From Knoellia subterranea KCTC 19937 (GTDB lineage Bacteria > Actinomycetota > Actinomycetes > Actinomycetales > Dermatophilaceae), in assembly GCF_000768685.1 (NCBI RefSeq), contig NZ_AVPK01000014.1, positions 1-44,539 on the forward strand: a stretch of 44,539 nt of DNA, read 5' to 3'. Shown piece after piece: positions 282 through 41,603 of this stretch. The translations under genes and the position numbers were made by a program. The notes below the pieces were generated by a model. It saw only the letters and a list, made by a program, of their open reading frames with translations, was not told where the DNA came from and made no database searches. Each line of letters opens with the position of its first letter. Positions within the stretch are counted from its first letter, which is position 1.

Positions 282-731
282 ATGAGCAATCAGGCCACGA
301 CCACCACGACCACGGCTCCCACGACCACGGCTCTCACGACCACAACCACGACGACGCCTGGCGGCGAGCCGAGGGAGTACGTCGTCCTCATCGTCGGGGA
401 CCCCGACCGCTGGTGGACCTCCATGACCGACGAGGAGCGCCAGAACGGGTATGCCGTCTACGGCCGATTCTCGGAGCAACTCGCCGAGCGCGGGCACACC
501 GTGACGGGCGGCGCCGAACTTCACGGTCGGGCCTCCGCCAAGTCCATCCCGACCGGTGGCGGGCCGGTCGTGGACGGGCCATTCGCGGAAAGCGTCGAGC
601 ATGTCGGCGGCTTCTACCAGATCGTGACCAGCGACCTCGACGACCTCCTCGACTGCTGTCAGCAACTGGCCGCCATCGGCGAGGGCATCGAGGTCCGCCC
701 GGTCGTCACGGACGAGGAGCGCCAGTCATGA
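282..731 (+). CDS. YCII/DGPF-domain protein 1 with Thr-rich N-terminus
   Basis: This 149-residue protein has a YCII-related (dimeric alpha-beta barrel) domain from about residue 33 (REYVVLIVGDPDRWW) to the end, including the hallmark VVDGPFAES. YCII proteins of this DGPF type accompany ECF42 sigma factors; their biochemical activity is unknown. The first 30 residues are almost all Thr/Ala, encoded by a CCACGA-type simple repeat, and are not part of the family domain. No start codon lies between the repeat and the domain, so the ATG at 282 (preceded by AAGGGG) is the only plausible start unless the repeat has slipped frame. The stop overlaps the next ATG by 4 bases (ATGA). Confidence 0.85.
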   Translation: MSNQATTTTTTAPTTTALTTTTTTTPGGEPREYVVLIVGDPDRWWTSMTDEERQNGYAVYGRFSEQLAERGHTVTGGAELHGRASAKSIPTGGGPVVDGPFAESVEHVGGFYQIVTSDLDDLLDCCQQLAAIGEGIEVRPVVTDEERQS

Positions 732-1117
732 CGCAGCGCTACCTCATCCTCCTGCCCGGGGACGAAGACGCGTGGGAGGCGCTGACTCGGGAGCAACGCG
801 ACACCGTCTATGCGCGACACGACGAGTTCGGCACCAAACTCCGCGCCAACGGTCACACGGTCCTCGGCGGCGCAGAGCTCACGCACTCGCGCGAGACCAA
901 GCTCGTGCGGGCCGACGCCGAGGGCAACGTCGTCGTCAGCGACGGGCCGTTCGCGGAAACGACTGAGCAGTTGACCGGCTACTACGACGTCGAGACCGAC
1001 AACCTGGACGATCTCCTGAGCCTCGTTGCGATCGTCGCCGGGCCCGACCACGCGTCGGCGGGAATGGGCGCCGTCGAGGTCCGCCGCGTCCCGACTGCCG
1101 AGGACCGAGAACCGTGA
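728..1117 (+). CDS. YCII/DGPF-domain protein 2
   Basis: A compact 129-residue YCII-domain protein of normal family length. It begins MTQRYLILLPGDEDAWE and carries VVVSDGPFAETTEQLTGYY in the middle, followed by DLDD-type and VEVRRV segments typical of the C-terminal strand. It overlaps the preceding gene by ATGA and the following one by GTGA, so the three YCII genes and the sigma factor are almost certainly translationally coupled. Residues of the DGPF signature are intact. Function unknown; the ECF42 link suggests a role in an ECF stress or signalling response. Confidence 0.88.
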   Translation: MTQRYLILLPGDEDAWEALTREQRDTVYARHDEFGTKLRANGHTVLGGAELTHSRETKLVRADAEGNVVVSDGPFAETTEQLTGYYDVETDNLDDLLSLVAIVAGPDHASAGMGAVEVRRVPTAEDREP

Positions 1118-1572
1118 GGCGCTACCTGTTTCTCATTGCCTACGAGCCCGGAGGCTGGGAATCGGCCACGCCGGAGGAGCGCCAGGTCTACGTCGACGGT
1201 CACGAAGCGTTCCACCGGTTCGTCGATGCGCGCGGCCGCCGCATCAGCGGCGCGCCTCTCGCCGACGCGGATACCGCGACGACCGTTCGGCACACGCGAG
1301 TGACTCAACACGGTGATGCTCCAGCCGACACTCACGCCGACGCACAGGCCGTCGAGCGCGCGGATGCACGCCCGGGCGAAGGAGCGCGTGGGCGAGTGGT
1401 CGTCAGCGACGGACCGTTCGCGGAGTCGGCGGAGATGATCGGCGGCTACTACGACGTGGAGCTTCCCGATCTCGACTCCGCCATCGCGGCCGCGTCCCTC
1501 CTCCCACCGGCGTATGCCGTGGAGATCCGTTCCGTGGTCGAGCTCGACGCGCGCGGTGAGCGAGTGGGATGA
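1114..1572 (+). CDS. YCII/DGPF-domain protein 3 with internal insertion
   Basis: Third YCII paralogue, 152 residues, starting at GTG 1114, which overlaps the previous stop. It has the family start (RRYLFLIAYEPGGWE) and the signature VVVSDGPFAESAEMIGGYY. Compared with its neighbour it carries about 25-30 extra residues (Asp/Ala/His-rich, near residues 62-92) just before the DGPF strand, between the putative substrate-side helix and the core sheet. It ends ATGA-coupled to the sigma factor gene. Three tandem paralogues suggest a hetero-oligomer or diversification after duplication; that is inference. Confidence 0.85.
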   Translation: MRRYLFLIAYEPGGWESATPEERQVYVDGHEAFHRFVDARGRRISGAPLADADTATTVRHTRVTQHGDAPADTHADAQAVERADARPGEGARGRVVVSDGPFAESAEMIGGYYDVELPDLDSAIAAASLLPPAYAVEIRSVVELDARGERVG

Positions 1573-2810
1573 CGACACTCGAACGGGTCGTGCGCGAGGA
1601 GTGGGGGCGCCTGGTGGCCCTCCTCCTCGCGCAGTTCCGTCGCCTCGATCTCGTCGAGGACGCGCTGGCTGACGCCGTCGAGGCTGCGCAGAAGCGGTGG
1701 CCCGACGACGGTGAGCCCGACAACCCCAGCGGATGGCTCGTCACCACGGCCCGTCGTCGCATCCTCGACCGATTGCGGGCCGAGGCGATGGCCGCCCGCA
1801 AGGAGCCACTGCTCACCGTCGAGGCCGAGCGCAGACCGAAGGAGGGGGTCATGGCCGACACCGGCGACGTCGTCGACGACGATCTCCTGCGCCTCGTCCT
1901 CATGTGCGCGCACCCTGCGCTGCCACCCGAGGGGGCGAGCGCACTCTCCCTGCGACTCGTCATGGGTATCTCGACGGCAGACATCGCCCGCCTCTTCCTC
2001 GTGAGCGAGTCGACGATGGCGGCCCGCATCACCCGCGCCAAGAAGAAGATCGTCACGGCCGGCATCCCGTTCGCCATCCCCGGGACCGAAGCGATCGGTG
2101 AGCGGCTCGACGTCGTGGGCCACACGGCATACCTCGCGTTCACGGCCGGCTACGCGCCCGGGAGCGGACCCGACCTCCTCCGCGCGGAACTCGCGGGCGA
2201 GGCGATCAGGCTCGCCCGCGTCGCGCACGCGCTGCGACCATCCGACACGCTCGCGCACCTCATCGCGCTCATGGCTCTGCAGCACTCCCGCCGCGACGCC
2301 CGGATCGGCGACGACGGCGAGCTCGTCCTCCTCCCGGACCAGGACCGCGGGCGGTGGCACCACGACGAGATCGCCGACGCTCTGAGCCTGCTGGAGGCCA
2401 CGGGGGCGGCGACGTCCGCGCTGTCCGAGAGCTATCGCCTCCAGGCGCACATTGCGGTGGAGCACGCCACGGCGCCCAGTGCCGCGGACACTCGATGGGA
2501 ACGCATCGCGGACCTCTACGCGGAGCTCGAGACGATCTCGCCCTCTCCCGCCGTGCGTGTGGCGCGAGCCGTGGCCGTCGCCGAGGCGGACGGGCCGGCG
2601 GCCGGCCTCGAGTTGCTCGACGGTGTCGAGATGGCGGGTCACCGAATCCTTGCCGTGCGTGGCGAACTCCTGGCTCGAGCAGGTGAGGCGGAGGCGGCAC
2701 GGATCGCGCTGCGGCAGGCCATTGCCGTGTGTGAGAACGACATCGAACGGCGCCACCTGGAGGTTCGCTGGGCCGATCTCGCCCCGGATGAACCCGCACA
2801 GGACACGTGA
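1569..2810 (+). CDS. ECF42-type RNA polymerase sigma factor with C-terminal extension
   Basis: A 413-residue sigma factor, about twice the length of an ordinary ECF sigma. Region 2 is at about residues 5-75 (DLVEDALADAVEAA, PSGWLVTTARRRILDRLR). The linker VVDDDLLRLVLMCAHPAL is typical of this group. Region 4 helix-turn-helix is near 133-160 (GISTADIARLFLVSESTMAARI). Residues from about 180 onward form a helical, TPR-like extension (AYLAFTAGYAPG, HLIALMALQHSRR) that ECF42 proteins carry and that probably replaces an anti-sigma factor in control; none is encoded nearby. It is the last gene of the DGPF operon and has the matching promoter upstream of that operon. Confidence 0.92.
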   Translation: MTTLERVVREEWGRLVALLLAQFRRLDLVEDALADAVEAAQKRWPDDGEPDNPSGWLVTTARRRILDRLRAEAMAARKEPLLTVEAERRPKEGVMADTGDVVDDDLLRLVLMCAHPALPPEGASALSLRLVMGISTADIARLFLVSESTMAARITRAKKKIVTAGIPFAIPGTEAIGERLDVVGHTAYLAFTAGYAPGSGPDLLRAELAGEAIRLARVAHALRPSDTLAHLIALMALQHSRRDARIGDDGELVLLPDQDRGRWHHDEIADALSLLEATGAATSALSESYRLQAHIAVEHATAPSAADTRWERIADLYAELETISPSPAVRVARAVAVAEADGPAAGLELLDGVEMAGHRILAVRGELLARAGEAEAARIALRQAIAVCENDIERRHLEVRWADLAPDEPAQDT

Positions 2811-2913
2811 TCGCAGTCACGCTTTGCCCCCAATAGCGCCCAATCCGCCCCGAATGCGGCGATCGCCTTCCGAGGATTCCTCGGCGACGGCGTCGTCTCC
2901 CGGGAGGTGAATC

Positions 2914-4155
2914 ATGCAGCTGAGTGTCCCGCGCTCGGTCCACGCATCCGCCGTGACGGTCGCGGTCGCCGCCGAGCGTGGCGTGCCCCGGGACGTCACG
3001 CTGCGCGGCACCGGCATCACCTCCGAGCTCCTCGTCGACCCCGACGGTGAGGTGGTCCTCGAGCAGGAGGTCACCCTCGTCTCCAACATCGTCCGCGAGC
3101 TGGGTCACGTGGTCGGTCTGGGCGCTCAGGTGGGCATCCAGTACCCGGTGAAGACATTCGGTGTGCGGGGCTACGCCCTCCTCACCAGCCCGAACGTCGG
3201 GAGCGCACTGCGCACCGCCACGCGGTTCCTCGACCTGAGCTTCGCGATGAGTTCGTTCTCCCTCCGCGTGGTGGGTGACGAGGCTCGCCTGTACTACGAC
3301 ACGTCCCAGCTGCCCGAGGAGATTCGGTCCTTCGTCCTCGAGCGGGACGGAATGGCCACGCGACGCATCGAACTCGAACTCCTCGGCTACCTCCTCGACC
3401 TGCGCTACATCGACACCCAGGAGCAGGGCACGCCCGAGGACCAGGCGCTGCTGGAAGCCTTCCTCGGTGCGCCGGTGCGCATGAACGCACCGACGACCTT
3501 CGGCGCCTTCGACGCGGCCCTGCTCGAGGCACCGCTGATGCATGCCGACCCCGTTCGGGCAGAGATTGCCATCCGGGAATGTCGCGAACTGCTCCAGAGC
3601 AAGCGCGCGAGAGTCGGGTATGCCGGCGCCGTCCGTTCCGCTCTCATCTCCGGTCCGCAGCAGTGGGGTGACATCGTCGCCATCGCGGCGGGGTTGCACA
3701 TCTCGGAGCGCACTCTGCAGCGTCGGCTCATCGAGGAAGGGACGTCCTTCTGCGACCTCGTCGCCAGCGTCCGGGAGGAGTTGGCGATGGAGCTCCTCGC
3801 GACCGGGATGCCGGTGGTCGACGTCGCCGAACGCCTCGGCTACGTCGAGGTGTCGAGCTTCTCCCAGGCTTTCCACCGGTGGCGCGGTGTGGCACCCAGT
3901 ACCTACCGCAGCAGCGTGGGTGCAGCGCCGTTGTCGCGGCGGCACGCGACCCGTGGACGGTCCGCATCGCCGGCCAAGCTGTCGTCTTCGAGTATGTCCA
4001 GCGCGCGCCTACTGGTCAGTAGCGTTCGATCACCACCCTTGCTGGACCACTCCTGGAGGAGCAATGACGCTCTCCGCCGAGGCGTCGGCGCGCACTCGAC
4101 AGACCGAGGCGGTCACCCCGCCCGGTCGCGTTCGGGCCGCCCGTCCCTGGCGTGA
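2914..4155 (+). CDS. AraC-family transcriptional regulator
   Basis: The start ATG has a good ribosome binding site (GGGAGGTG). Residues about 25-215 resemble the Arabinose_bd-type N-terminal ligand domain of OruR/ArgR-like AraC regulators. Residues 250-332 are the two-helix-turn-helix DNA-binding domain (GLHISERTLQRRLIEEGTSF and VVDVAERLGYVEVSSFSQAF, ending APSTYR). The family normally stops just after this point, but here the frame runs a further 80 low-complexity residues and overlaps the alkB start at 4064. The tail is probably read-through of the former promoter region, after a frameshift or lost stop. Position suggests it once controlled the adjacent alkane hydroxylase. Confidence 0.85.
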   Translation: MQLSVPRSVHASAVTVAVAAERGVPRDVTLRGTGITSELLVDPDGEVVLEQEVTLVSNIVRELGHVVGLGAQVGIQYPVKTFGVRGYALLTSPNVGSALRTATRFLDLSFAMSSFSLRVVGDEARLYYDTSQLPEEIRSFVLERDGMATRRIELELLGYLLDLRYIDTQEQGTPEDQALLEAFLGAPVRMNAPTTFGAFDAALLEAPLMHADPVRAEIAIRECRELLQSKRARVGYAGAVRSALISGPQQWGDIVAIAAGLHISERTLQRRLIEEGTSFCDLVASVREELAMELLATGMPVVDVAERLGYVEVSSFSQAFHRWRGVAPSTYRSSVGAAPLSRRHATRGRSASPAKLSSSSMSSARLLVSSVRSPPLLDHSWRSNDALRRGVGAHSTDRGGHPARSRSGRPSLA

Positions 4156-4989: not shown

Positions 4990-5012
4990 GGCGAGGTTGC
5001 TGACAGACGTGA

Positions 5013-5073
5013 GCGGACGGCATACACAGCCTCCCGGGCCGCCGGGGTCCGGGAGGCGGTGTATGCCGTCCGC
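5013..5073 (+). terminator. strong hairpin terminator built from an inverted pair of the GTATGCCG repeat
   Basis: Left arm 5013-5037 pairs with right arm 5049-5073: 25 positions with one mismatch (A5028/G5058) and an 11-base loop. There is no clear T-run. The outer 15 bases of each arm contain the GTATGCCGTCCGC repeat in opposite orientations. It follows the membrane-protein stop (4989) and precedes the lipoprotein gene (5158), the expected place for a terminator. Confidence 0.75.
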
Positions 5074-5157
5074 GCGCCGTCGGCGCGGCTGTCCCGGGGC
5101 GAGAGTGTCTTCCTGAATCCGGGAGGCACCCCGCACGCGCCGTGCCACACTGCGGAC

Positions 5158-7267: not shown

Positions 7268-9465
<2,198 letters not shown>

Positions 9466-9700: not shown

Positions 9701-10105
9701 CTAGAGCCCCAGTTCGCGGGCGCCGGTCGTCGACGAGTCGCGCAGGAAGTCGGCGCAGCGCCGCTCCTCGTCGGTCTCACCGATCGCCCCGGCCGCGCGC
9801 GACAGTGCCGCGAGGGCGCGCAGGAAGCCGCGGTTGGGCTCGTGCTCCCACGGCACCGGCCCCTGACCGCGCCAGCCGTTGCGGCGCAGCGCGTCGAGGG
9901 CACGGTGGTAGCCCGTGCGGGCGAAGGCGTAGCCCTCGATCGTCCGGCCGTCCTCGAGGGCGTCCTCGGCGAGGGTCGCCCACGCGATCGGAGAAGCCGG
10001 GTATGCCGCCGCCACCTGGTCCGCGGCCACGCCGGCTTCCAGCCGGGCCGCCGCGGGATCCTCGGGCAGCTTCGTCTCGGGGATGCCGAGCAGGTTGTCA
10101 CTCAC
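9701..10105 (-). CDS. DUF3151 family protein
   Basis: 134 residues. It contains AYPASPIAWATLAEDALEDG, EGYAFARTGYHRALDALRRNGWRG and PVPWEHEPNRGFLRALAALSRAA, which fit the actinobacterial DUF3151 family (helical, tetratricopeptide-like pattern, function unknown). The full family length is present. It is 37 bases downstream of fba on the same strand and followed by a strong hairpin terminator, so it is probably co-transcribed with fba; the same neighbours occur in mycobacteria. No signal peptide or membrane segment is visible. Confidence 0.88.
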   Translation of the reverse strand: MSDNLLGIPETKLPEDPAAARLEAGVAADQVAAAYPASPIAWATLAEDALEDGRTIEGYAFARTGYHRALDALRRNGWRGQGPVPWEHEPNRGFLRALAALSRAAGAIGETDEERRCADFLRDSSTTGARELGL

Positions 10106-11605: not shown

Positions 11606-13819
11606 TCAGTTCGGGCGGAGCACCGTCATCCGGTGGGCTGCTCGGGTGAGCACGACGTAGAGCACTCGCACCCCACCGGGTGACTCCTCGACGATCGCAT
11701 CCGGGTCGACGACGACGGTCGCGTCCCACTCGAGACCCTTGGTGGACAGCGGGTCGATGACCTGGACGCGGCCCTCGCCGGCGCCGTCGAGGTGCTGGAG
11801 CCGGTCGGCCCATCGGGCCGGCGTGATGACCGCGATCGATCCCTCGACATCGCCGAGCAGTTCGAGCACAGCATCGTCGGTCGCCGATGCGGGACTGTCC
11901 TCGAAGCCCCGGTCCACCGGCGCCACGCCGGTCTCTCGCACGGCCTCCGGGATGTCCGCGTCGGGCACGAGGGGGAGGATGACGTCGCGGGCGTAGTCGA
12001 AGATCTCGCGCGCGTTGCGGTAGTTCGTGTCCATGTGGAACTCGCGCAGCTGCTGGCTGCCATAGGCCTCGCGGCGCGCCGAGCGGGCCTCCTCGAGGTC
12101 GCCCCACGACGCCTGCGCCGCGTCACCGACGACGGTCCACGAGGCGTTGCGGCCCCGACGCGCGAGCATCCGCCACTGCATCGGTGAGAGGTCCTGGGCC
12201 TCATCGACGAGGACGTGGGCACTGCTCGACGATCGCTCGATCCGGCCGTGGAGCAGTCGCTCGCGGGCCGTGCTCGGTGTCACCACGCTCGTGGTGGAGG
12301 TCGCACCGTCACGTCGGTCGACGCCGGCGCGCACGTCGAGAACTCCATAGGACGAGAGGTCGTCGAATTCCTCGATCTCATAGAACCCGCGCTCCTCGGC
12401 CTCCGGCTGCTGGACCGGTCCGAGTCGCGCCGAGACGTCATCGATGAGGGCGACGTCGGCGACCGACCAGGTGCCGAGTTCGATGGCCTCACGCATCGAC
12501 TGCGCGAGTGCGGCCGACTCCTCGTGGTTGAGGACACCCCGGGCCAGCCCGAGGACGTGGTCGGTGTCGGCGAGGGTCAGCAGCACTTCGCGCGGATCGA
12601 CCTGGCGCCACCAGGACTGGACGAAGGCGTCGATGTCGCGCGAGGAGTCGAAGGCGTCGAAGAACTGGTCACGGTCGCCCTGGCGCACGGACTTCCAGGC
12701 GGCCTGGGCCAGCTCCTCGCGGGCCTGCTTCGCGGCGAGGTTGTGCTGGCTGGATCGCAGGATGTGGCGCCGGATGCCGCTGAGGACACCGGAATCGAGC
12801 CGGACTGCGTGCCCGTTGATGAACGCGCGCAACTCGGACGGGGCACCCTCGGGAGGCCGAGAGGCGGCGCGGGACAGCACGCGACGGATCCGCAGCGAAC
12901 CCTTGATCGCCGCGACCTCGGGGGAGTCGAGCCGGACGGCGGTCACACCGTCGACGAGGTCGCCGAGGGCTCGCAGGGCGACGCTGTCCTCGCCGAGCGA
13001 GGGCAGGACGCGTTCGATGTAGGCGGTGTAGGCGGCCGACGGGCCGACGACGAGGATGCCGCCGGACTCGAAGCGACGCCGTTCCGAATAGAGCAGGTAT
13101 GCCGCACGGTGCAGTGCGACGACCGTCTTCCCCGTTCCGGGTCCACCAGTGATCTCGGTGATCCCTCGTGAGGGGGCCCGGATCGCTTCGTCCTGGTGGC
13201 GCTGGATCGTGGCGACGATGTCGCGCATCTGGCGTCCACGGCTGCGCGTCAGCGCGGCGATGAGCGCGCCGTCGCCGACCACGACGATGTCGTCGGGGGC
13301 CTCGGGGACCATGAGGTCGTCCTCGACACCGACGACGGTCGACCCGCTGCAGCGCAGGACGCGCCGGCGCAGGACCCCCATGGGGTCGACCGGGGTGGCG
13401 CGATAGAACGCGGCAGCCGCAGGCGCGCGCCAGTCGACGACGAGCGGCTCGTAGTCGTCGTCGCGCACCCCGAGCCGGCCGATGTGGCGGATCTCCCGGT
13501 CCGCTGCCGGCGTCGAGACCTCGCCGAGGTCGAGGCGGCCGAAGACGAGCCCTTCGTACTGCTTCTCGATCGCGGAACGGCGCTTCGCGGCGGCATACAC
13601 GAGGGCATCGCGCTCGAAGAGCCCGGTGAGTTCCTCGTCGCGGACATCGCCGGTGCGGCTCGTCCGGCCGCGGGCGAGGCCGTCGGCCTCGACATCGGCG
13701 GCACGTCCGGACGCCTTCTCGAGCTCGGCGTAGACGCGGTCGACGTGCGCCTGTTCCAACTCGATCTCACGAGCGACGTCAGCCGAGGTGTCAGTGGCAC
13801 CGGGGCGCGTGGTCGTCAC
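11606..13819 (-). CDS. helD: HelD-like RNA polymerase-associated ATPase (UvrD/Rep superfamily 1)
   Basis: About 737 residues from GTG 13819, chosen because AGGGAGGG lies 8 bases upstream; a longer frame to 13867 has no clear site. Motifs of a superfamily 1 helicase-type ATPase are complete: Q-region and Walker A ITGGPGTGKTVVALHRAAYL, Walker B HVLVDEAQDLSPMQW, motif III VVGDAAQASW, motif V PLSTKGLEWDATVVVD and motif VI LYVVLTRAAHRMTVL. The N-terminal 80 residues are a long charged coiled coil, as in HelD, which reaches into RNA polymerase channels to release it from stalled complexes. HelD is the best fit; related HelR proteins give rifamycin tolerance, but no rifamycin-associated element is evident upstream. 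Confidence 0.9.
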   Translation of the reverse strand: MTTTRPGATDTSADVAREIELEQAHVDRVYAELEKASGRAADVEADGLARGRTSRTGDVRDEELTGLFERDALVYAAAKRRSAIEKQYEGLVFGRLDLGEVSTPAADREIRHIGRLGVRDDDYEPLVVDWRAPAAAAFYRATPVDPMGVLRRRVLRCSGSTVVGVEDDLMVPEAPDDIVVVGDGALIAALTRSRGRQMRDIVATIQRHQDEAIRAPSRGITEITGGPGTGKTVVALHRAAYLLYSERRRFESGGILVVGPSAAYTAYIERVLPSLGEDSVALRALGDLVDGVTAVRLDSPEVAAIKGSLRIRRVLSRAASRPPEGAPSELRAFINGHAVRLDSGVLSGIRRHILRSSQHNLAAKQAREELAQAAWKSVRQGDRDQFFDAFDSSRDIDAFVQSWWRQVDPREVLLTLADTDHVLGLARGVLNHEESAALAQSMREAIELGTWSVADVALIDDVSARLGPVQQPEAEERGFYEIEEFDDLSSYGVLDVRAGVDRRDGATSTTSVVTPSTARERLLHGRIERSSSSAHVLVDEAQDLSPMQWRMLARRGRNASWTVVGDAAQASWGDLEEARSARREAYGSQQLREFHMDTNYRNAREIFDYARDVILPLVPDADIPEAVRETGVAPVDRGFEDSPASATDDAVLELLGDVEGSIAVITPARWADRLQHLDGAGEGRVQVIDPLSTKGLEWDATVVVDPDAIVEESPGGVRVLYVVLTRAAHRMTVLRPN

Positions 13820-14964: not shown

Positions 14965-14994
14965 GAACCCGCCGCCATTCGGTTTGAATGAACC

Positions 14995-15069: not shown

Positions 15070-15080
15070 GCCGCGTGGAC

Positions 15081-15138: not shown

Positions 15139-15281
15139 TGTGCCAGGGATTCTGGTCCGCCCGTTGTGGTGGGCTGGCGCAGCACCTCGCGATCCGCGGT
15201 CGGACCGGCCGACCAGCATCGCGTATGCCGTCCGCGGACTGCCGTCGGCGGCCCGACTCCGCGCCCCTAGGCTTGGCGCCC

Positions 15282-16585: not shown

Positions 16586-17515
16586 TCAGCCGAGCTGGGG
16601 CAGCACGTCCGCGGCGAAGTCCTCGAGGTGGTCGAGGTCGGCGAGGTCGAGCACCTGGAGATAGACGCGGGTCGCACCGACCTCGGCGAAGCGGCCGAGT
16701 TTGTCGACGATCTCGTCCGTCGATCCCGCGAGGCCGTTGGCGCGGAGCTCATCGACGTCACGGGAGATCGCGGCGGCCCGGCGGCGGAGCGTCGTCTCGT
16801 CGTTGCCGACACAGAGCACCTGCGCCACCGACAGGACGAGCTCGTCGGGGTCCCGACGGTGCTCCTCGCAGGCGCCGTGCACGCGCGCGAACAGCTCACC
16901 ACTCGTCTCGACGGAGTCAAAGGCGGCGTTGAACTCGTCGGCGTAGCGGGCCGCGAGTGAGGGTGTGCGGCGCTTCCCGCTGCCGCCGATGATGATCGGC
17001 ACGCCACCCGGCTGCGCCGCCGCAACGAGTCCGGGGGCGTCGACGATCGGGTAGTGGGAGCCGTCGTGGCTGAAGGTCTCGTTGCGCGGCGTGGTCCAGA
17101 GGCCGGTGATCACTGCCAGCTGTTCTTCGAGCCGGTCGAACCGTTCCCGGACGTCCGGGAAGTCGATTCCGTATGCCGCGTGCTCGGCTTCGAACCATCC
17201 CGCACCGATGCCCAACTCGACTCGACCACCCGACATCTGGTCGACGCCGGCAACGGCCACGGCAAGTGGTCCGGGCAGGCGGAACGTCGCTGCCGTCACG
17301 AGCGTCCCGAGACGCAGGCGCTGGGTGTCCCGGGCCAGCCCGGCGAGCGTGATCCAGGCGTCCGTGGGGCCGGGGGCACCATCGCCACTCATGTGGAGGT
17401 AGTGGTCGGACCGGAAGAACCCGTCGTACCCGGCGTCCTCGGCTGCACGCGCCACCGCGAGGAGGTCGTCGTAGGTCGCGCCCTGCTGCGGTTCGGTGAA
17501 GATCCGGAAGTCCAT
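16586..17515 (-). CDS. LLM-class F420-dependent oxidoreductase A
   Basis: 309 residues from ATG 17515 (MDFRIFTEPQQGATYDDLLA). It has the TIM-barrel pattern of luciferase-like monooxygenases that use F420: DAGYDGFFRSDHYLHM, RLRLGTLVTAATFRLPGPLA, QMSGGRVELGIGAGWFEAEH, VPIIIGGSGKRRTPSLAARY. F420 use is characteristic of actinobacterial members, but the substrate cannot be read from sequence. The gene ends 23 bases after purD, converging on it, and its start is 71 bases from the divergent VOC gene. A longer open frame upstream overlaps the VOC promoter and is not used. Confidence 0.88.
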   Translation of the reverse strand: MDFRIFTEPQQGATYDDLLAVARAAEDAGYDGFFRSDHYLHMSGDGAPGPTDAWITLAGLARDTQRLRLGTLVTAATFRLPGPLAVAVAGVDQMSGGRVELGIGAGWFEAEHAAYGIDFPDVRERFDRLEEQLAVITGLWTTPRNETFSHDGSHYPIVDAPGLVAAAQPGGVPIIIGGSGKRRTPSLAARYADEFNAAFDSVETSGELFARVHGACEEHRRDPDELVLSVAQVLCVGNDETTLRRRAAAISRDVDELRANGLAGSTDEIVDKLGRFAEVGATRVYLQVLDLADLDHLEDFAADVLPQLG

Positions 17516-29538: not shown

Positions 29539-30402
29539 TCAGTCTGGCGGCGCCGGGGACCACGCGGTGTCGCCGGTGGCCTCGCTGAACGGCTGCGCTC
29601 CGGCACCACGCGACAGCACCTCGTCCGGGCCCACGACACCGGTCGGCAGCGGCAGCCGTGCGGTCGCGCGCCGCATCTCAAAGAGAGGCAGTGGCCCACG
29701 CGACGCAGCGAGGACGACGTTGCCGTAGCCCTTCCCCTTGAGGACGTGGTGCAAACCCACGTATGCCGTCCGCGCACCTTCCCTGCGACCCGCGACCTCC
29801 TCGCGACTCCCGTCCGCCCTGTCATCCCCGTTCGGACCCAGTGCGGCGCGGGCACCCGAGGCCACGCGAGCGGAGTACTTCAGCCCGGGCCGATCCCCGA
29901 GGTTCGCCAAGAACAGCCCGCCCGGTGCGAGGACTCGCGCGACCTCACCCAGCCACTCGACCGTGGTGAGCGAGGCTGGGACGCGCCCGCCGGCATACGC
30001 ATCAAGAATGACGAGATCCGCACTGCCGGAAGCCAATCCGGCCACCCCGGCCTCACCCGTCAACGGGCGCACCCGGATTCGGTGACCGCGCGGCAGCGGC
30101 AGTTCACGTCGCACGGCCTCGGTCAGCGCAACGTCCGGCTCGAGCACGATCTGCGGCGAACCCGGTCGGGTCGCGTGGATCCAGCGCGCCAGCGTGAGGC
30201 CAGCGCCACCGATGTGCGTCACTCGCAACGGCGCCGGCCGCGCGAACACCGCGTCGATGCAGAGGGCGAGCGACTGGACGTACTCGAAAACGAGCAGCTC
30301 CGGATCGGCCAGCGACACCGCCGACTGCGCGTGCTCCCCGATGCGGATCCACGTGACGTCGCCGTCCTGCTCGAAGACGGGCGCGTCGGACGCTTCACTC
30401 AC
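29539..30402 (-). CDS. spermidine-synthase-fold methyltransferase-like protein
   Basis: 287 residues. The Rossmann core has a SAM/decarboxylated-SAM-type pocket: LRVTHIGGAGLTLARWIHAT, PQIVLEPDVALTEAVRRE, SADLVILDAYAGGRVPASLT and VLAPGGLFLANLGDRPGLKY. The usual GGGDG motif is GGAGLT here, so true spermidine synthase activity is doubtful; a related unassigned actinobacterial family is more likely. Between about residues 195 and 222 there is an Arg/Asp/Glu-rich insertion (GDDRADGSREEVAGRRE) ending in ARTAY, which is a copy of the GTATGCCGTCCGCGC repeat read on the other strand. The start ATG 30402 lies just past the terminator of the next gene. Confidence 0.8.
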   Translation of the reverse strand: MSEASDAPVFEQDGDVTWIRIGEHAQSAVSLADPELLVFEYVQSLALCIDAVFARPAPLRVTHIGGAGLTLARWIHATRPGSPQIVLEPDVALTEAVRRELPLPRGHRIRVRPLTGEAGVAGLASGSADLVILDAYAGGRVPASLTTVEWLGEVARVLAPGGLFLANLGDRPGLKYSARVASGARAALGPNGDDRADGSREEVAGRREGARTAYVGLHHVLKGKGYGNVVLAASRGPLPLFEMRRATARLPLPTGVVGPDEVLSRGAGAQPFSEATGDTAWSPAPPD

Positions 30403-32257: not shown

Positions 32258-32461
32258 GCCTACTCCTGTTCGGCCTGATGGCCGGGGTGGGTGCGCGCGG
32301 TGTCACAGGGGTGACGACAGGGAGCCCGCAACGCTGGTGTGTGCCCGCCCATGCTGCCGGACGAAACGTGCGGATGCAGTAGGACCGCATAACTATTTGT
32401 CAACTGGGCATGAAGAATGTCCCCTCGCGGAGCGCTCGCCGCGCCGAACTACCATCCCGGT

Positions 32462-32842
32462 ATGCCGTCCCGTCGCCGTGTGCCTGTCGCGGCCGGTCGC
32501 GCTGCACTCACCTCCTGGATGGCCGCCCCGGGTGAGGTCGATCGGACGACCACAGCCACCGCGGTGCGATTCACGCTCGAGGAACTCGGCGAACGGGCGC
32601 CCGGCCGCAGCGTCGAGGTGCGCGTGCCGCCGTTCGGAGTGGTGCAGTGCATCGAGGGCCTCCAGCACCGGCGCGGCACCCCACCCAACGTCGTCGAGAC
32701 CGATGCCGCGACCTGGCTCGCCCTCGCCGTCGGGCACCTCGAGCCCGCCGAGGCCGAGGCCCAGGGGCGCCTGCGGGTGTCGGGCACCCGAGCCGACCTC
32801 ACGGCATACCTGCCGCTCTTCCCCGACCATGACGAGAACTGA
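32462..32842 (+). CDS. sterol carrier family protein (SCP_3-like)
   Basis: 126 residues from ATG 32462 (MPSRRRVPVAAGRAALTSWM). It matches the small actinobacterial sterol-carrier-like family: TATAVRFTLEELGERAPGRS, VEVRVPPFGVVQCIEGLQHR, RGTPPNVVETDAATWLALAV and RVSGTRADLTAYLPL. A hydrophobic lipid-binding role is inferred from the fold; the ligand is unknown. In many actinobacteria this gene is close to pur genes. The ATG lies inside a copy of the GTATGCCG repeat. TACCAT (32450-32455) six bases upstream suggests a leaderless mRNA. The next gene starts 6 bases after the stop. Confidence 0.85.
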   Translation: MPSRRRVPVAAGRAALTSWMAAPGEVDRTTTATAVRFTLEELGERAPGRSVEVRVPPFGVVQCIEGLQHRRGTPPNVVETDAATWLALAVGHLEPAEAEAQGRLRVSGTRADLTAYLPLFPDHDEN

Positions 32843-32848: not shown

Positions 32849-33748
32849 ATGACCGAGCTGCGACACGGAATCTCGATCCTTCCCGACCTGCCCTGGCGCG
32901 AGGCGGGGTCGCGGTGGCGCGCGGTCGAGGAGATGGGGTTTGCGCACGCGTGGGTCTATGACCACCTCGTGTGGGGTGGGCTGCCGGACTCGACGTGGTT
33001 CCCGGCGGTGCCGACGCTTGCGGCAGCGGCGGGCGTGACGTCGACCATCGGGCTCGGCACGTTCGTGACGTCGCCGAACTTCCGGCACCCCTATGTCTTC
33101 GCGCGCGACGTGTTCGCGCTCGACGATCTGTCCGCCGGCCGGTTCATCTGCGGGCTCGGCACGGGCGGTGATCTCGACTCGGCAGTGCTCGGGGAGTCGC
33201 ACACGGTCAAGGCGCGCGTCGACAGGTTCCACGAGTACGTGCCGTTGCTGGATCGGCTGCTGCGCGAGGACCATGTCGACCACGAAGGAGACTGGTATGC
33301 CGTCCGCGACGCCCGCACGCTCCCCGGCCCCGTGCGCGATCGGGTGCCTTTCATCATTGCGGCGAACGGGCCGCGGTCGTTGCGGTTGGCCGCGCGCTTC
33401 GGACAGGGGTGGGTGACGACGGGGCCGGGTGGCGTCGAGACGCTCGACGAGTGGTGGTCCGGTGTCGCAGGGTTGGCATCACGGCTGAGTGACCTGCCCG
33501 GGACGGACTCGATGGACCGCTATCTGTTGCTCGACGCGTCGCCGCAGTTCTCGCTGGAGTCCGTGGGCGTCTATGAGGAGATGACCGGGCGCGCGGCGGA
33601 GTTGGGCTTCACCGACACGATCACGCACTGGCCGCGTTCGGGATCCCCGTATGCCGGGTCGGAGGCGACGCTCGACGAGGTCGCCTCACGCTTCGTGAGC
33701 GGGGGAGACACCGGCACCGGCGGCGGCTGTGCACCGGAGGCGAAGTAG
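32849..33748 (+). CDS. LLM-class F420-dependent oxidoreductase B
   Basis: 299 residues, second luciferase-like protein of the window and only distantly similar to the first. Family strings: EEMGFAHAWVYDHLVWGG, STIGLGTFVTSPNFRHPYVF, ALDDLSAGRFICGLGTGG, VPFIIAANGPRSLRLAARFG. It follows the sterol-carrier gene by 6 bases and is likely co-transcribed with it. The C-terminus ends in a Gly-rich tail that is not part of the barrel. F420 dependence is the usual property of actinobacterial members of this class; substrate unknown. Confidence 0.88.
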   Translation: MTELRHGISILPDLPWREAGSRWRAVEEMGFAHAWVYDHLVWGGLPDSTWFPAVPTLAAAAGVTSTIGLGTFVTSPNFRHPYVFARDVFALDDLSAGRFICGLGTGGDLDSAVLGESHTVKARVDRFHEYVPLLDRLLREDHVDHEGDWYAVRDARTLPGPVRDRVPFIIAANGPRSLRLAARFGQGWVTTGPGGVETLDEWWSGVAGLASRLSDLPGTDSMDRYLLLDASPQFSLESVGVYEEMTGRAAELGFTDTITHWPRSGSPYAGSEATLDEVASRFVSGGDTGTGGGCAPEAK

Positions 33749-34044: not shown

Positions 34045-35007
34045 TCAGTTGCGCAGGGCGGCGACCGTGTCGGCGAGGCCCTCGTCGAGGGAGCGGCATT
34101 CCCAGCCGAGTTCCCGCTCGGCCTTGGCCCGCGTGCCGACGTAGCTCGACAGGGCGGCGCGCAGTGACTCCGGGTGGTACGTCGGCGGCACGGGCAGCGC
34201 GGCCGCGACGGGGGTCATGAGCTTCTCGCCGACGCGCAGCGCCACGTCGGGGACGAGCAGCGGTCCCTTGCCGCCGGCGATCCGGGCCACGCGCTGGAGC
34301 AGCCCGGCCAGGGACGACGGCTCACCCGAGAGCATGTAGGCCTCGCCGGGAGTCCCGCGCTCCATGGCGACGACATGGCCGCGGGCGACGTCGGACACGT
34401 GCGTCCACACGAGGGTTCCGCCGCCGCGTGGGGCGATCGGTCGCCCGCCCCGGGCCGCCAGGGCGATGAGTTCGCCGACCTGCGAGGTGTCGCCGGGGCC
34501 ATAGATCCCGCCGGGCATCACGGTCACGACCGGCAGGCCGCGCTCGACGAACTCCTCGGCGATGCGGTGCGCGTCGGCCTTCGTGCGGTCGTACTCCGTC
34601 AGATGCGATCCGGTATGCCGGTAGCTCTCGTCCCGCACAGCGCCTCCGGTGTCGCTGTTGACGGCAAGCGTGCTCGTGTAGACGACCTTGGCCGTGCCGG
34701 CACTCAGTGCTGCGGTCAGCACGTTGCGGGTGCCGTCGACGTTGACCCGCTGGCCGGGCGATCGGTCGCGCTCGCCGAGCTTGTACCAACCGGCCACATG
34801 GAAGAGCCCGTCCGCGCCGTCGACCAGCGTGTCCAGCGCGGTCAGGTCGTCGAGGTCGCCCTGCACGAGGGTGGCCCCGAGGTCGGAGAGGGATCCGGCT
34901 CGGCCGGGGTTGCGGACGAGGGCAACGACGTCGTGTCCGTCGGCAACCAGCTGGCGGGCGAGTTCGCCCCCGACGAATCCGGTCGCCCCGGTGAGTGCGT
35001 AGCGCAT
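34045..35007 (-). CDS. extended SDR (NAD-dependent epimerase/dehydratase)
   Basis: 320 residues. It starts with the nucleotide-binding TGATGFVGGELARQLVADG, then ATLVQGDLDD, a Ser/Thr near VVYTSTLAVNS and the catalytic Tyr-x3-Lys in TEYDRTKADAHRIAEE, followed by VMPGGIYGPGDTS. These are the features of atypical or extended short-chain dehydrogenases resembling dihydroflavonol-4-reductase-like proteins. The substrate is unknown; such proteins act on sugars, sterols or flavonoid-like ketones. It is the next gene beyond the rskA terminator on the same strand and is probably transcribed on its own. Confidence 0.88.
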   Translation of the reverse strand: MRYALTGATGFVGGELARQLVADGHDVVALVRNPGRAGSLSDLGATLVQGDLDDLTALDTLVDGADGLFHVAGWYKLGERDRSPGQRVNVDGTRNVLTAALSAGTAKVVYTSTLAVNSDTGGAVRDESYRHTGSHLTEYDRTKADAHRIAEEFVERGLPVVTVMPGGIYGPGDTSQVGELIALAARGGRPIAPRGGGTLVWTHVSDVARGHVVAMERGTPGEAYMLSGEPSSLAGLLQRVARIAGGKGPLLVPDVALRVGEKLMTPVAAALPVPPTYHPESLRAALSSYVGTRAKAERELGWECRSLDEGLADTVAALRN

Positions 35008-37218: not shown

Positions 37219-38796
37219 TCATCCGACGGTGACGGGGATGGTGTGCCACCCGGTGGCACCCCGCGGGAACGGCTCGGCTCGCTGCTCGGTCTGGACGGCG
37301 CCGGTGCGGTCGGTCGCGCGGACCGACAGTTCGTGGTTGCCCGACGGCGCGTCCCACTCGAGGTACCACTGGCTCCAGTAGTCGATGCCACCGTCCGGTC
37401 CCAGCGTGGCTTCCAGCCACGGACCGTCGTCGATGCGCACCTCCACCTTCTGTATGCCGCGACCCTGGGCCCACGCGACCCCACCGATGACGTTCGTTCC
37501 GGTCTTCAGGCGGGCGAGTCCGCGGGGCGTGTCGATGCGGGACTGCGTGAGGATGCGGCCGTCGATGGCCCAACCGCGCTGGGTCCAGTAGGCCTCCTCG
37601 GAGTCGTAGGTCGTGGCGGTGAGACGCTCGACCCACTTGGTCGACCCGACGAACCCGTAGAGGCCGGGCGTCACGAGCCGCACTGGGTAGCCGTGGCGCC
37701 GGGGGAGCGGTTCTCCGTTCATGCCGATCGCGAGCAGGGCGTCGCGGTCGTCCATGAGCGCCTGCACCGGTGTCGAGATCGTCATGCCGTCGACCGATCG
37801 GCTGAGGATCTGGTCGGCGCTGGCGCGAACTCCCGCTCGGGACAACAGTTCTCGCACCGGCACGCCGAGCCAGCGAGCACCACCGATGTAGCCGCCGCCG
37901 ACCTCGTTGCTGACGCAGCACATCGTGATGTCCTTCTCCACGAGCGGCATCGCGACCAGTTCCGAGTAGCTGACTTCGAAGGGCGAGTCGACCTCTCCGT
38001 CGATGCTCAGTCGCCACTCGTCGACGTCGACGCGGGGGATGACCAGGGCGGTGTCGATCCGGTAGAAGTCGGCGTTGGGCGTCCGCCAGGGCTCGAGTCC
38101 CTTGACCCGCGACTCCAGGCCGGTCGGCAGGGGCGCCAACGCGGTCGACGGCGCCGGGAGCGTCAGGGTCGAGGGGGCCACGGCATCGACGGTGAGCTTC
38201 TGCCCGAGGGCTCCGATGCCCACCGCGCCGACAGTCGCCCCTCCCGCACCGAGGAGGAAGGCACGCCGCCCGGTCGGACTGGGTTCTCCGGTGGCGCGGG
38301 CGTTGTGATCGGTCGGACTCTCGGGGCCGACGGCGCACTCAGCACTCGCGGAGGGCAGGAGGCCGAGGAGCCAGCCGAGGACGAGGACGCCGACGAGTCC
38401 CGTCACGAGTCCGGGGAGGACATCGAGCTGCCCGGCAGCGGGCCGCAGCACGGCCGCCGCCGTGGCGAGCATCGCCAGCCCGACGAGGATGAGCCGACCG
38501 GCCGTCGGACGACGTCGTGCGACCACGCCAGCGAGGGCCGCCGCCAGCAGGGTGACGACGGTGACGCTGCCGATCAGGACGGGCTTGTCGGCCGTGCCCA
38601 TCGTTCGGACGGCCCACTCCTTCACCGGGGTCGGTGTGGCATCGATGACCTGCGACCCCACGGCCAGAACGGGCGAGGCTTCCGGAGCGACGAACGCCGC
38701 CACCAAGTGGCCCACAGCGGCACCGGCGGCCGCGGCGAGAAGCCCGCTCACGGCATACGGGAAGCTTCTTCGCCACGCGGAAACAGAAACGTCCAT
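37219..38796 (-). CDS. membrane molybdopterin oxidoreductase, sulfite-oxidase-like
   Basis: 525 residues from ATG 38796. Five N-terminal hydrophobic segments (PYAVSGLLAAAAGAAVGHLV, LIGSVTVVTLLAAALAGVV and others, up to about residue 150) precede a Tat-like RRAFLLGAGGATVG near residue 170. The catalytic molybdopterin domain follows: DFYRIDTALVIPRVDVDEWR, the Mo-binding Cys in KDITMCCVSNEVGGGYIGGA, and GYPVRLVTPGLYGFVGSTKW. A C-terminal dimerisation domain has VEVRIDDGPWLEATLG. It probably reduces or oxidises sulfur compounds outside the membrane. Its own SigK promoter leaves only about 7 bases between -10 and ATG, so the mRNA should be leaderless. Confidence 0.92.
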   Translation of the reverse strand: MDVSVSAWRRSFPYAVSGLLAAAAGAAVGHLVAAFVAPEASPVLAVGSQVIDATPTPVKEWAVRTMGTADKPVLIGSVTVVTLLAAALAGVVARRRPTAGRLILVGLAMLATAAAVLRPAAGQLDVLPGLVTGLVGVLVLGWLLGLLPSASAECAVGPESPTDHNARATGEPSPTGRRAFLLGAGGATVGAVGIGALGQKLTVDAVAPSTLTLPAPSTALAPLPTGLESRVKGLEPWRTPNADFYRIDTALVIPRVDVDEWRLSIDGEVDSPFEVSYSELVAMPLVEKDITMCCVSNEVGGGYIGGARWLGVPVRELLSRAGVRASADQILSRSVDGMTISTPVQALMDDRDALLAIGMNGEPLPRRHGYPVRLVTPGLYGFVGSTKWVERLTATTYDSEEAYWTQRGWAIDGRILTQSRIDTPRGLARLKTGTNVIGGVAWAQGRGIQKVEVRIDDGPWLEATLGPDGGIDYWSQWYLEWDAPSGNHELSVRATDRTGAVQTEQRAEPFPRGATGWHTIPVTVG

Positions 38797-38831: not shown

Positions 38832-38872
38832 GTGTGCACGGGTGTCCCGCGGACTCGTGGGACACTGGGAGT

Positions 38873-40447
38873 GTGGCACGCGGAGATGGACGACTCACGC
38901 ACGATCTGATGCCGGGCGAGAAGGGGCCGCAGGACGCCTGCGGCGTCTTCGGTGTCTGGGCCCCCGGCGAGGACGTCGCCAAGCTGACCTATTACGGGCT
39001 CTACGCGCTCCAGCACCGCGGCCAGGAATCCGCGGGTATCGCCGCGAGCAACGGCCGCCGCCTGCTCGTCTACAAGGACATGGGCCTCGTGTCGCAGGTC
39101 TTCGACGAGCGCTCGCTCGGGTCGCTGACGGGGCACCTCGCGATCGGCCACTGTCGCTACTCCACGACCGGCGGCTCGACCTGGGAGAACGCCCAGCCGA
39201 CGCTCGGCGGCCACGACGGGGGCACCCTCGCCCTCGCCCACAACGGCAACCTCATCAACTCCGCCGAGCTGCGCGACCTCGTCGGCGAGGCCAACGGCGA
39301 CGGCCGTCACCGCGGCGAGATCGGTCGCGGCAACACCACCGACACCGCGCTCGTCACCGCGCTGCTCACCGCCGACCCGGACCGCACGGTCGAGGACGCC
39401 GCCAAGGACGTCCTCCCGCGCCTGCGTGGTGCGTTCTGCTTCGTCTTCATGAACGAACACACCCTGTATGCCGCCCGCGACCCTCAGGGGATTCGTCCCC
39501 TCGTCCTGGGGCGCCTCGAGCGCGGCTGGGTCGTCGCGTCCGAGACGGCCGCGCTCGACATCGTCGGTGCGTCCTTCATCCGCGAGGTCGAGCCGGGCGA
39601 ACTCATCGCCATCGACGAGGACGGGCTGCGGTCCGAGCGGTTCGCCGAGCCCGACCGCAAGGGGTGTGTGTTCGAGTACGTCTACCTCGCCCGCCCCGAC
39701 ACCACGATCAACGGCCGGGTCGTCCACGAGTCCCGGGTCGAGATGGGCCGGGCGCTCGCGCGCGAGCACCCGGTCGAGGCCGACCTCGTCATGCCGACGC
39801 CGGAGTCGGGCACGCCCGCTGCGATCGGTTATGCGCAGGAGTCGGGCATCCCCTACGGGCAGGGTCTGGTCAAGAACGCCTACGTGGGGCGCACGTTCAT
39901 CGCACCGTCGCAGACGATTCGCCAGCTCGGCATCCGGCTCAAGCTCAACCCGCTCAAGGAAGTCATCAAGGGCAAACGGCTCGTCGTGGTCGACGACTCG
40001 ATCGTGCGCGGCAACACGCAGCGCGCGCTCGTCCGGATGCTCCGGGAGGCGGGCGCGGCCGAGGTGCACGTCCGGATCTCGTCGCCGCCGGTGCGCTGGC
40101 CCTGTTTCTACGGCATCGATTTCGCGACGCGGGCGGAGCTCATCGCGACCGGCATCGGGGTCGAGGAGGTCTGCAACTCCATCGGGGCCGACTCGCTCGG
40201 CTACATCTCCCAGGACGGCATGATCGCCGCGACCGAGCAGCCGCGCGAGCGTCTCTGCACGGCGTGCTTCACGGGTGAGTACCCGCTGGAGCTGCCGTCG
40301 GCCGATCGGCTCGGCAAGGGTTTGCTCGAGTTGGAGTTCCCCGTCGCCGAGGGCGAGGCGAACGCGACCGATGCGGGCACGCTCGACGTCGAGCGCGTCT
40401 CCGTCACGGCGTCGGGTGGGGCGGCCGAGGCCGTCCGTCGGCCATGA
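38873..40447 (+). CDS. purF: amidophosphoribosyltransferase
   Basis: 524 residues from GTG 38873 (VARGDGRLTHDLMPGEKG). It makes phosphoribosylamine from PRPP and glutamine, the first step of purine synthesis. A 22-residue propeptide precedes the nucleophile Cys (PQDACGVFGVWAPGED). Glutaminase residues follow in ALQHRGQESAGIA, GHCRYSTTGG and ALAHNGNL. The PRPP loop is VVVDDSIVRGNT. Four cysteines (KGCVFEYVY, PCFYGIDF and LCTACF) match the [4Fe-4S] ligands of Bacillus-type PurF. GACACT ends 6 bases before the GTG, so it is probably leaderless. purM follows, and the molybdoenzyme gene diverges 76 bases away. Confidence 0.97.
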   Translation: MARGDGRLTHDLMPGEKGPQDACGVFGVWAPGEDVAKLTYYGLYALQHRGQESAGIAASNGRRLLVYKDMGLVSQVFDERSLGSLTGHLAIGHCRYSTTGGSTWENAQPTLGGHDGGTLALAHNGNLINSAELRDLVGEANGDGRHRGEIGRGNTTDTALVTALLTADPDRTVEDAAKDVLPRLRGAFCFVFMNEHTLYAARDPQGIRPLVLGRLERGWVVASETAALDIVGASFIREVEPGELIAIDEDGLRSERFAEPDRKGCVFEYVYLARPDTTINGRVVHESRVEMGRALAREHPVEADLVMPTPESGTPAAIGYAQESGIPYGQGLVKNAYVGRTFIAPSQTIRQLGIRLKLNPLKEVIKGKRLVVVDDSIVRGNTQRALVRMLREAGAAEVHVRISSPPVRWPCFYGIDFATRAELIATGIGVEEVCNSIGADSLGYISQDGMIAATEQPRERLCTACFTGEYPLELPSADRLGKGLLELEFPVAEGEANATDAGTLDVERVSVTASGGAAEAVRRP

Positions 40448-40472
40448 TCGCCCGCTGACTAGGCTGACCCGC

Positions 40473-41603
40473 GTGAGTGACCAGGGCACCTCGGGCGAAC
40501 AGATCACGTATGCCGCGGCAGGCGTCGATGTCGAGGCGGGTGACAAGGCCGTCGAGTTGATGAAGGCCGACGTCCGCCGGGCGACCCGTCCGGAGGTCCT
40601 GGGTGGTCTCGGTGGCTTCGCAGGCATGTTCGACGCGAGTGCGCTGGCGCGCATGGACCGTCCCGTTCTCGCGACGTCGACGGACGGGGTGGGCACCAAG
40701 GTGGCCATCGCGCAGGCCCTCGACATCCACGACACCATCGGCTTCGATCTCGTCGGCATGGTGGTCGACGACATCGTCGTCTGCGGCGCCGAGCCGCTCT
40801 TCATGACCGACTACATCGCCACCGGCAAGGTCGTGCCGGAGCGCATCGCCGCTATCGTCGGCGGCATCGCCCGGGCGTGCGAGCAGGCCGGCGTCGCCCT
40901 CGTGGGCGGCGAGACCGCCGAGCACCCGGGGCTCTTGGAGCCGGACGAGTACGACGTCGCGGGTGCCGCGACCGGCGTTGTGGAGTATGCCGGTGTGCTG
41001 GGTCCGCAGCGCGTCCGACCCGGAGACGTCGTGCTGGGTCTCGCATCGTCGGGTCTGCACTCGAACGGCTATTCGCTGGTGCGCAAGGTCGTGGCGAGCT
41101 CCGGCTGGGAGCTCGACCGGCACGTCGACGAGTTCGGGCGCACGCTGGGTGAGGAGCTGCTGGTGCCGACGCGCGTCTATTCGCGTGACCTGCTCGAGCT
41201 CATCCGGACCGACGGGCTCGATGTGCACGCCCTGTCGCACGTGACCGGGGGCGGCCTCGCGGCCAACCTGGCGCGGGTGCTGCCGTCGGACGCCTTCGCC
41301 CGCGTCGACCGCTCGACGTGGACGCCGCCGGCTGTGTTCTCCACCGTCCAGGCGCTGGGTCGGGTGCCGCAGGCCGACATCGAACGCACCCTCAACATGG
41401 GGGTCGGTTTCGTCGCCATGCTTCCTGCCGAACAGGCCGACCTGGCTGTCGCGACGCTCGCCGCACGGGGCATCGACACCTGGGTTATGGGTGAGGTTTC
41501 CGCGCTCGAGGACGCCCAGGTCGCGGACGGTGTCGAGGTCGTGCGTGGCGCCAAGGGCGTCGACGGTGGCTCGGTGCAGGTCGTCGGCACGCATCCTGCC
41601 TGA
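40473..41603 (+). CDS. purM: AIR synthetase
   Basis: 376 residues from GTG 40473. It closes FGAM to AIR with ATP. Motifs: ITYAAAGVDVEAGDKAVELM, PVLATSTDGVGTKVAIAQAL, DLVGMVVDDIVVCGAEPLFM, ALVGGETAEHPG, ASSGLHSNGYSLVRKV, SHVTGGGLAANLARVLP and NMGVGFVAMLP. TAGGCT (40460-40465) ends 7 bases before the GTG, so although it is 25 bases downstream of purF it appears to have its own leaderless promoter as well as any read-through from purF. Confidence 0.97.
   Translation: MSDQGTSGEQITYAAAGVDVEAGDKAVELMKADVRRATRPEVLGGLGGFAGMFDASALARMDRPVLATSTDGVGTKVAIAQALDIHDTIGFDLVGMVVDDIVVCGAEPLFMTDYIATGKVVPERIAAIVGGIARACEQAGVALVGGETAEHPGLLEPDEYDVAGAATGVVEYAGVLGPQRVRPGDVVLGLASSGLHSNGYSLVRKVVASSGWELDRHVDEFGRTLGEELLVPTRVYSRDLLELIRTDGLDVHALSHVTGGGLAANLARVLPSDAFARVDRSTWTPPAVFSTVQALGRVPQADIERTLNMGVGFVAMLPAEQADLAVATLAARGIDTWVMGEVSALEDAQVADGVEVVRGAKGVDGGSVQVVGTHPA

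Follow-up and report, generated by a model that had tools for sequence, protein, structure and literature searches.

A single short word is repeated throughout a contig of Knoellia subterranea KCTC 19937 (NZ_AVPK01000014.1, 44,539 nucleotides, analysed at full length and called the window below): the non-palindromic octamer GTATGCCG, which lies in genes and in the gaps between them, on both strands. We think it probable that Knoellia and many other Dermatophilaceae (Intrasporangiaceae in older usage) use this word, together with weakly conserved flanks, as a signal by which they recognise their own kind of DNA in natural transformation. Among the roles that an earlier note on this DNA had listed for the octamer, an uptake or self-recognition signal fits best. 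The word resembles uptake sequences in being abundant, balanced in orientation, in excess outside genes, paired in hairpins, set in extended flanks, varied by a dialect and scarce in the inserts sampled.

Abundance in the window and the genome

The window, which is the entire contig C4 of a genome of 3,566,056 bases in 33 contigs, holds 36 exact copies of GTATGCCG between positions 449 and 40992, with 22 on the forward and 14 on the reverse strand. Dinucleotide shuffles of the window yield 0.47 copies on average and 4 at most, a third-order Markov model predicts 1.85, and the word ranks first among the over-represented octamers there. The earlier note, which had counted about 36 copies on both strands against one or two expected and seven copies extended to a longer form (GTATGCCGTCCG, n=7), was right in these respects. 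The whole genome (3.57 Mb) carries 2,444 copies, 1,233 forward and 1,211 reverse, against 54 for the control, the word read backwards. In a 378-kb sample of this genome that includes the window, 252 copies stand against 11.6 from the third-order Markov model; an excess over Markov expectation, set beforehand as a test of the motif, is thus present at roughly 20-fold. Numbers of the same order are given in PMC1939737 for the uptake signal sequences (USS; 1,471 copies) and the DNA uptake sequences (DUS; 1,965 copies) of other bacteria.

Maintenance at the DNA level

What keeps so many copies in place? We analysed coding context in about 773 kb, made up of our own genome's DNA and the single-contig Knoellia genome G003, with genes called by a simple codon model. 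Of the 554 copies in this material, 375 lie inside called genes, whereas 30 within-gene shuffles of synonymous codons retain a mean of 39 and at most 55, an approximately tenfold excess that speaks against a protein-level cause (in the antisense rows of the shuffles the frame labels are permuted, with totals unaffected). A transcription-linked signal is disfavoured by the near-equal split of the genic copies into 201 sense and 174 antisense. Confinement to a single codon frame, which would have spoken against the motif as a DNA signal, was not found: all six combinations of strand and frame are occupied, with Tyr-Ala and Ala-Tyr together accounting for 299 of the 375 coding copies. Outside called genes the word is 2.6 times as dense as inside them.

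The copies are also conserved in position. Of the 89 copies in segments of our genome that align to other Knoellia (79% identity), 73 (82%) are intact, compared with 28% of 8-mers of equal A+T content; these alignments are partly redundant, Knoellia remsis being present under two sources, so that the 89 sites are not all independent. Variants with a single mismatch reach at most about twice their Markov value and several fall below it, that value being itself inflated by the copies, and mutated copies therefore seem to be quickly removed or restored. Synonymous shuffling and positional conservation together support the view, already put forward from the window, that selection or drive targets the DNA and not the protein. 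Such strong conservation of single sites that are redundant with one another argues for a force acting on each site separately, such as drive by transformation.

Strand-wise spacing

What surprised us most was the order of the copies along the two strands. Spacing was tested in our own sample, in G003, G015 and G033, and in small samples from G055 and from Microbacterium-type DNA. In our own sample and G003, consecutive copies mostly switch strand, the same strand being used in 173 of 522 pairs (P 1e-14). Relative to a uniform expectation, copies on the same strand reach 0.17-0.63 in every distance bin up to 1 kb, and copies on opposite strands 0.67-1.21 between 120 bp and 1 kb. Octamers of similar abundance show a mean same-strand share of 0.505-0.522, in control sets (40, 13 and 113 octamers) among which are the motif and words that overlap with it. 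The avoidance recurs in G015 (128 of 359 pairs) and in G033, there with its own dialect of the word, GGATGCCG (113 of 337).

This pattern suggests a separate requirement on the two strands, each having to carry a copy within about 1 kb. Reading on single strands, or by a one-way motor, would lead one to expect strand-wise spacing, and an orientation-blind receptor on double-stranded DNA would not; the orientation-blind spacing that would follow from binding double-stranded DNA either way round is not what GTATGCCG displays, though we do not treat such spacing as a defining trait of DUS and USS. Convergent and divergent pairs at 200-1000 bp are about equally frequent (82 vs 78), which disfavours simple directional uptake of double-stranded DNA, under which the two should differ.

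Over longer distances the strands are balanced. Across 19 stretches of the single-contig genome G003 we counted 139 copies forward and 151 in reverse; the least balanced stretch has 4 and 8. A replication-strand signal of the type of FtsK-orienting polar sequences (KOPS), which the earlier note had mentioned, is disfavoured by this lack of strand bias: no stretch is strongly one-sided, replichores not having been assigned.

An extended site and inverted pairs

The 169 copies outside called genes define a degenerate site of about 30 bp around the GTATGCCG core. Upstream, positions -12 to -5 are rich in A (41% A at -8 vs 14% in the far flanks); downstream, positions +8 to +18 favour T, C/G, C, G, C, T, C, A, C, C, T. 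The upstream enrichment in A is also found in G015 and, more weakly, in G033. Copies within 60 bp of one another form 35 opposite-strand pairs and 3 same-strand pairs. One inverted pair lies in the window at 5012..5074, with its left arm on the reverse strand outside called genes (5018..5025) and its right arm on the forward strand at the start of a called gene (5061..5068); as single-stranded DNA, positions 5010-5080 form a hairpin of -37.3 kcal/mol (z -8.4). The extended Knoellia form, at window positions 5018-5072 and across the genome, includes ATGCCGTC, with which the Neisseria AT-DUS given in PMC12061091 (ATGCCGTCTGAA) begins, a resemblance that we take as chance unless shown otherwise.

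Positions of the remaining copies in the window

The other 34 copies are spread over genes and gaps as follows. Those read in the sense direction of a called gene lie on the forward strand at 449..456, 1512..1519, 3618..3625, 24939..24946, 26864..26871, 32460..32467, 33295..33302, 33649..33656, 39466..39473, 40508..40515 and 40985..40992, and on the reverse strand at 7975..7982, 13591..13598, 18084..18091, 19628..19635, 21811..21818 and 29991..29998. Antisense copies occupy 8669..8676, 10001..10008, 13097..13104, 17171..17178, 21718..21725, 29761..29768, 34613..34620 and 37452..37459 on the forward strand and 2125..2132, 16348..16355, 22800..22807, 25289..25296, 26672..26679 and 32802..32809 on the reverse strand, the one at 16348..16355 falling in a purD-like gene with GARS domains. 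Three further copies are outside called genes: 15223..15230 (forward, within a longer open reading frame at 14988-16562), 20111..20118 (forward) and 38751..38758 (reverse). The reading-frame examples picked out from the sequence beforehand are correct, namely Arg-His-Thr (RHT) for the antisense copies starting at 8669, 22800 and 34613, Arg-Met-Pro (RMP) for the sense copy at 26864, and Gly-Ile with the ATA codon for the antisense copies at 21718 and 37452.

Distribution and dialects across the family

Among 186 Dermatophilaceae genomes, 103, belonging to 30 of 53 genera, contain at least 800 copies of GTATGCCG, 16 contain 180-799 and 67 fewer than 180. Summed over the 103 motif-rich genomes, forward and reverse copies number 100,024 and 100,329. 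In three genera a single species is poor in the word: G141 in g68 has 50 copies vs 394-1,901 in the others, G065 in g52 has 37 vs 1,251-1,660, and G118 in g25 has 19 vs 1,062 and 3,681. No such excess was found in 22 genomes from 19 other families of the order. The sister genera g26 and g17 have the dialect GGATGCCG, with 3,949 copies in G033, 3,816 in G024 and 3,838 in G071 and only 40-272 of GTATGCCG. In 73 other genomes tested, GGATGCCG reaches 1,038-1,548 copies in G055, G009, G181 and G114 and 241-949 in the remaining 69.

Loci with organism names, mostly 10-21 kb long, place the word in Knoellia remsis, Terrabacter, Terracoccus, Humibacillus, Phycicoccus sp. Soil802 and P. elongatus, and also in Ornithinimicrobium, Intrasporangium oryzae, Flexivirga and Arsenicicoccus; it is absent from the sampled loci of three Janibacter, Dermacoccus abyssi, Phycicoccus jejuensis and Intrasporangium flavum. 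Among the matches listed in our searches, which covered open-access literature and not subscription papers or outside preprints, there was no report of such a sequence in Actinobacteria, and a search by the bare octamer returned only apparently unrelated papers among the matches listed.

Several other words came to light in the same material. A 20.8-kb locus of a Phycicoccus metagenome-assembled genome (L127) carries 13 copies of GAATGCCG beside 8 of GTATGCCG, and its genome perhaps stands between two dialects. Five Microbacterium-type loci of 12-21 kb (L173, L180, L191, L194 and L200, one of them named solely as a Micrococcales metagenome-assembled genome) contain 119 copies of GGATGCCG in 95 kb vs 19.5 expected, without strand-wise spacing. 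In G055, from another family of the order (L241-L243, L085, L086), a longer related word, CGGATGCCTCG, occurs 35 times in 100 kb vs 0.5 expected; ACGACGCCG occurs 21 times in 40 kb of G037 (L071, L072) vs 2.2 expected; and two Propionibacteriaceae-type loci (L163 and L187) have 33 and 42 copies of GGCGTCCG vs 6.7 and 8.5 expected. G022 (L061/L062) shows six copies in 40 kb of GTTTCACGTG, which we take to be part of a parS-type site. We did not accept GTACGCCG, seen in G030 and G031, as a dialect; it is common in Kribbella loci too.

Transformation genes

The earlier note had proposed a look for competence genes, and our own genome has comEA, comEC and a Tad/Flp cluster with an ATPase, a TadB/C-like gene, a pilin of the DUF4244 family and a gene weakly matching TadE, a gene content that would equip the host for natural transformation. 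Deletion of tad genes in Micrococcus luteus abolished or sharply lowered transformation (PMC4322843), and the M. luteus Flp fragment printed in PMC6370729 matches DUF4244 (E 4.3e-12); the Knoellia pilin belongs to the same family as the M. luteus competence pilin. Comparison of the pilins and of TadE/TadF by eye gave no obvious sequence that follows the dialect. Two genes with sortase domains precede the pilin in our own Tad cluster (L204:8311-9636); at the matching place G003 has what appear, by eye, to be a TetR-like regulator and two small transporters (L206:9440-10700).

Inserts and interrupted pilin genes

Our own sample contains three 5-kb stretches of low G+C (0.56-0.63) without GTATGCCG. 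In two Knoellia the DUF4244 Flp pilin gene is split at a similar place, its halves lying 161 kb apart in G003 (L206/L296) and 73 kb apart in G001 (L299/L297), and in both a large serine recombinase gene adjoins the right-hand half (Resolvase domain, E 1.9e-36 and 1.1e-36). The 45.8 kb sampled between the halves in these genomes holds 5 copies of GTATGCCG, against about 35 expected at the density of G003. We infer that the entire interval between the halves is one inserted element. A third split pilin was found in G143, of another genus, with halves 24 kb apart, and G134, G137 and G193 give weak multiple pilin matches. Elements that disrupt competence genes are described in PMC4774983, including in the pseudopilin gene comYC. 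The DNA between the halves (L294:184-6989; L299:959-3673) bears Tad-like genes of its own, perhaps a mobile pilus locus. SAF-domain proteins are encoded there in both genomes; G003 adds a T2SSE ATPase and a small protein that matches DUF4244 weakly.

A proposed signal read during transformation

How might such a word work? DNA released by kin would be caught by the Tad/Flp competence pilus and would pass as a single strand through ComEA/ComEC, and the strand bearing the word would be preferentially taken up, kept or recombined. Either strand may enter, so both would have to carry the word at intervals of about 1-3 kb. By transformation the word would be copied into relatives and mutated copies would be repaired, and this drive could maintain thousands of copies; a change in the recogniser would produce dialects, and loss of recognition would lead to loss of the word. 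We infer that the word is read in transformation, on single strands, and kept by drive and not by selection at the level of the cell. The fuller proposal could fall either way: an independently evolved uptake-sequence system of single-membrane bacteria, with a Tad/Flp pilus, single-strand reading, evenly spaced tags on each strand, dialects, and serine-recombinase elements that oppose it by insertion into the pilin gene.

A number of results weigh against a self-recognition signal for transformation. We found no published experiment in which such a word was tried in uptake or transformation. Orientation-blind binding of double-stranded DNA would not yield strand-wise avoidance, so the single-strand step is an added assumption; uptake in H. 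influenzae is described in PMC1939737 as unaffected by orientation. In Neisseria, single-stranded DUS of one strand transforms somewhat compared with the other (PMC12061091, citing Duffin and Seifert 2012) and double-stranded DNA is preferred (PMC12061091), so that strand asymmetry is not foreign to uptake systems, yet is not their main mode. The avoidance itself is not seen in the small samples from G055 (37 of 82 pairs) and the mixed Microbacterium-type loci (52 of 114), and the word is missing from some 5-kb stretches of normal G+C too.

No gene that we followed tracks the motif. comEC is present in 57 of 58 relatives and so does not divide motif-rich from motif-poor genomes; Tad-type ATPase matches occur in all 58 (57 above the cut-off); and the pilin is missing from 7 of the 103 genomes rich in the motif and from 6 of the 67 poor in it, in a comparison that omits the 16 genomes with 180-799 copies. 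Of the gene families lying no more than 10 kb from comEC and shared by 4 or more loci, none separates 19 motif-rich from 7 motif-poor loci. The type IVa gene pilM is absent from all nine Knoellia, which leads us not to expect a receptor of the ComP/PpdA type, ComP itself not having been searched for. Candidate interrupted pilins were found in 6 of 96 motif-rich and 0 of 61 motif-poor genomes, a difference that is not significant (P 0.08), and both halves were observed in just three of the six (G001, G003 and G143).

Alternative explanations

The chief rival is a Chi-like signal, which we regard as unlikely. An end-processing helicase-nuclease other than RecBCD, perhaps AdnAB, would read the word in one direction and switch to loading RecA; for a motor arriving from one side only one orientation of copies would count, and this accounts for the strand-wise avoidance with the fewest assumptions and for the equality of convergent and divergent pairs (82 vs 78 at 200-1000 bp) with no extra ones. 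The low copy number in the sampled inserts fits as well. RecBCD Chi in its known form is disfavoured, since RecC had no match in any of nine Knoellia, 10 of the 13 motif-rich genera represented in the set of 58 relatives gave none either, and G003 lacks the strand bias that marks Chi in E. coli. To our knowledge AdnAB works without Chi. A footprint of about 30 bp is unexpected for a word read within an enzyme, and a dialect switch between sister genera, together with losses in single species of three genera, would be odd for a housekeeping signal.

We consider it improbable that the word is a strand mark such as a methylation site, placed when a site-specific enzyme modifies one strand and needed within about 1 kb on each, whether for strand discrimination in repair or for a restriction-like distinction of self from non-self. 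Such a mark likewise predicts separate spacing on each strand. The sites of known methyltransferases do not as a rule show 20-fold over-representation, and long degenerate flanks are unlike such sites.

An element of nucleoid organisation, segregation or transcription ending is still less probable. The inverted pairs, the one strong hairpin in the window and the higher density outside called genes would suit it, whereas most copies (375 of 554) fall inside called genes, in sense (201) and antisense (174) orientation, chromosomal strand bias is absent, and strand-wise spacing has no part in such models. Least credible of all is that mutation, repair or codon bias yields the word as a functionless by-product: the Tyr-Ala and Ala-Tyr contexts do supply 299 of the 375 coding copies, but synonymous shuffles leave 39, positional conservation is 82%, and other octamers lack the strand-wise spacing.

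Relation to known systems

Sequence-specific uptake has been described for Neisseriaceae and Pasteurellaceae (PMC1939737, PMC12616744). Like the DUS of Neisseriaceae, the Dermatophilaceae word occurs in thousands of non-palindromic copies, with no chromosomal orientation bias, an excess outside genes, dialects and inverted hairpin pairs, the last a habit of DUS according to PMC3630211. It differs in its phylum, in the absence of type IVa pilM (nine of nine Knoellia), in having no known ComP there and in its strand-wise spacing. Like the USS of Pasteurellaceae, whose extended form spans 17 bp (PMC12616744) and whose even spacing PMC1939737 credits to Karlin et al., it has a short core within a longer degenerate site with an A-rich flank. 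The core is different, the A-rich part lies upstream of it in Knoellia, the pilus is of another type, and single-mismatch forms in Knoellia show no clear excess.

With Chi sites it shares its form, a non-palindromic octamer for which the strand matters; it differs in the lack of a RecC match in Knoellia and of strand bias in G003, in its long footprint, in its dialect and in its loss from single species. HIP1 of cyanobacteria, a very abundant palindromic octamer of debated role found in some genera only, is similarly abundant and restricted; HIP1 is palindromic, which makes strand-wise spacing impossible, whereas GTATGCCG is not. New here are the footprint of about 30 bp, the GGATGCCG dialect, the few copies in the sampled inserts and the avoidance of same-strand copies within about 1 kb.

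If our reading is true, sequence-specific uptake would have a separate origin in one actinobacterial family, reaching across 30 of the 53 genera sampled. The spacing strand by strand points to the stage at which reading takes place, and the relatives that have, changed or lost it form a panel in which to find the recognising protein and to test drive against mate-choice ideas. Many Dermatophilaceae may then be naturally transformable, including the wastewater lineages formerly placed in Tetrasphaera (PMC9123174).

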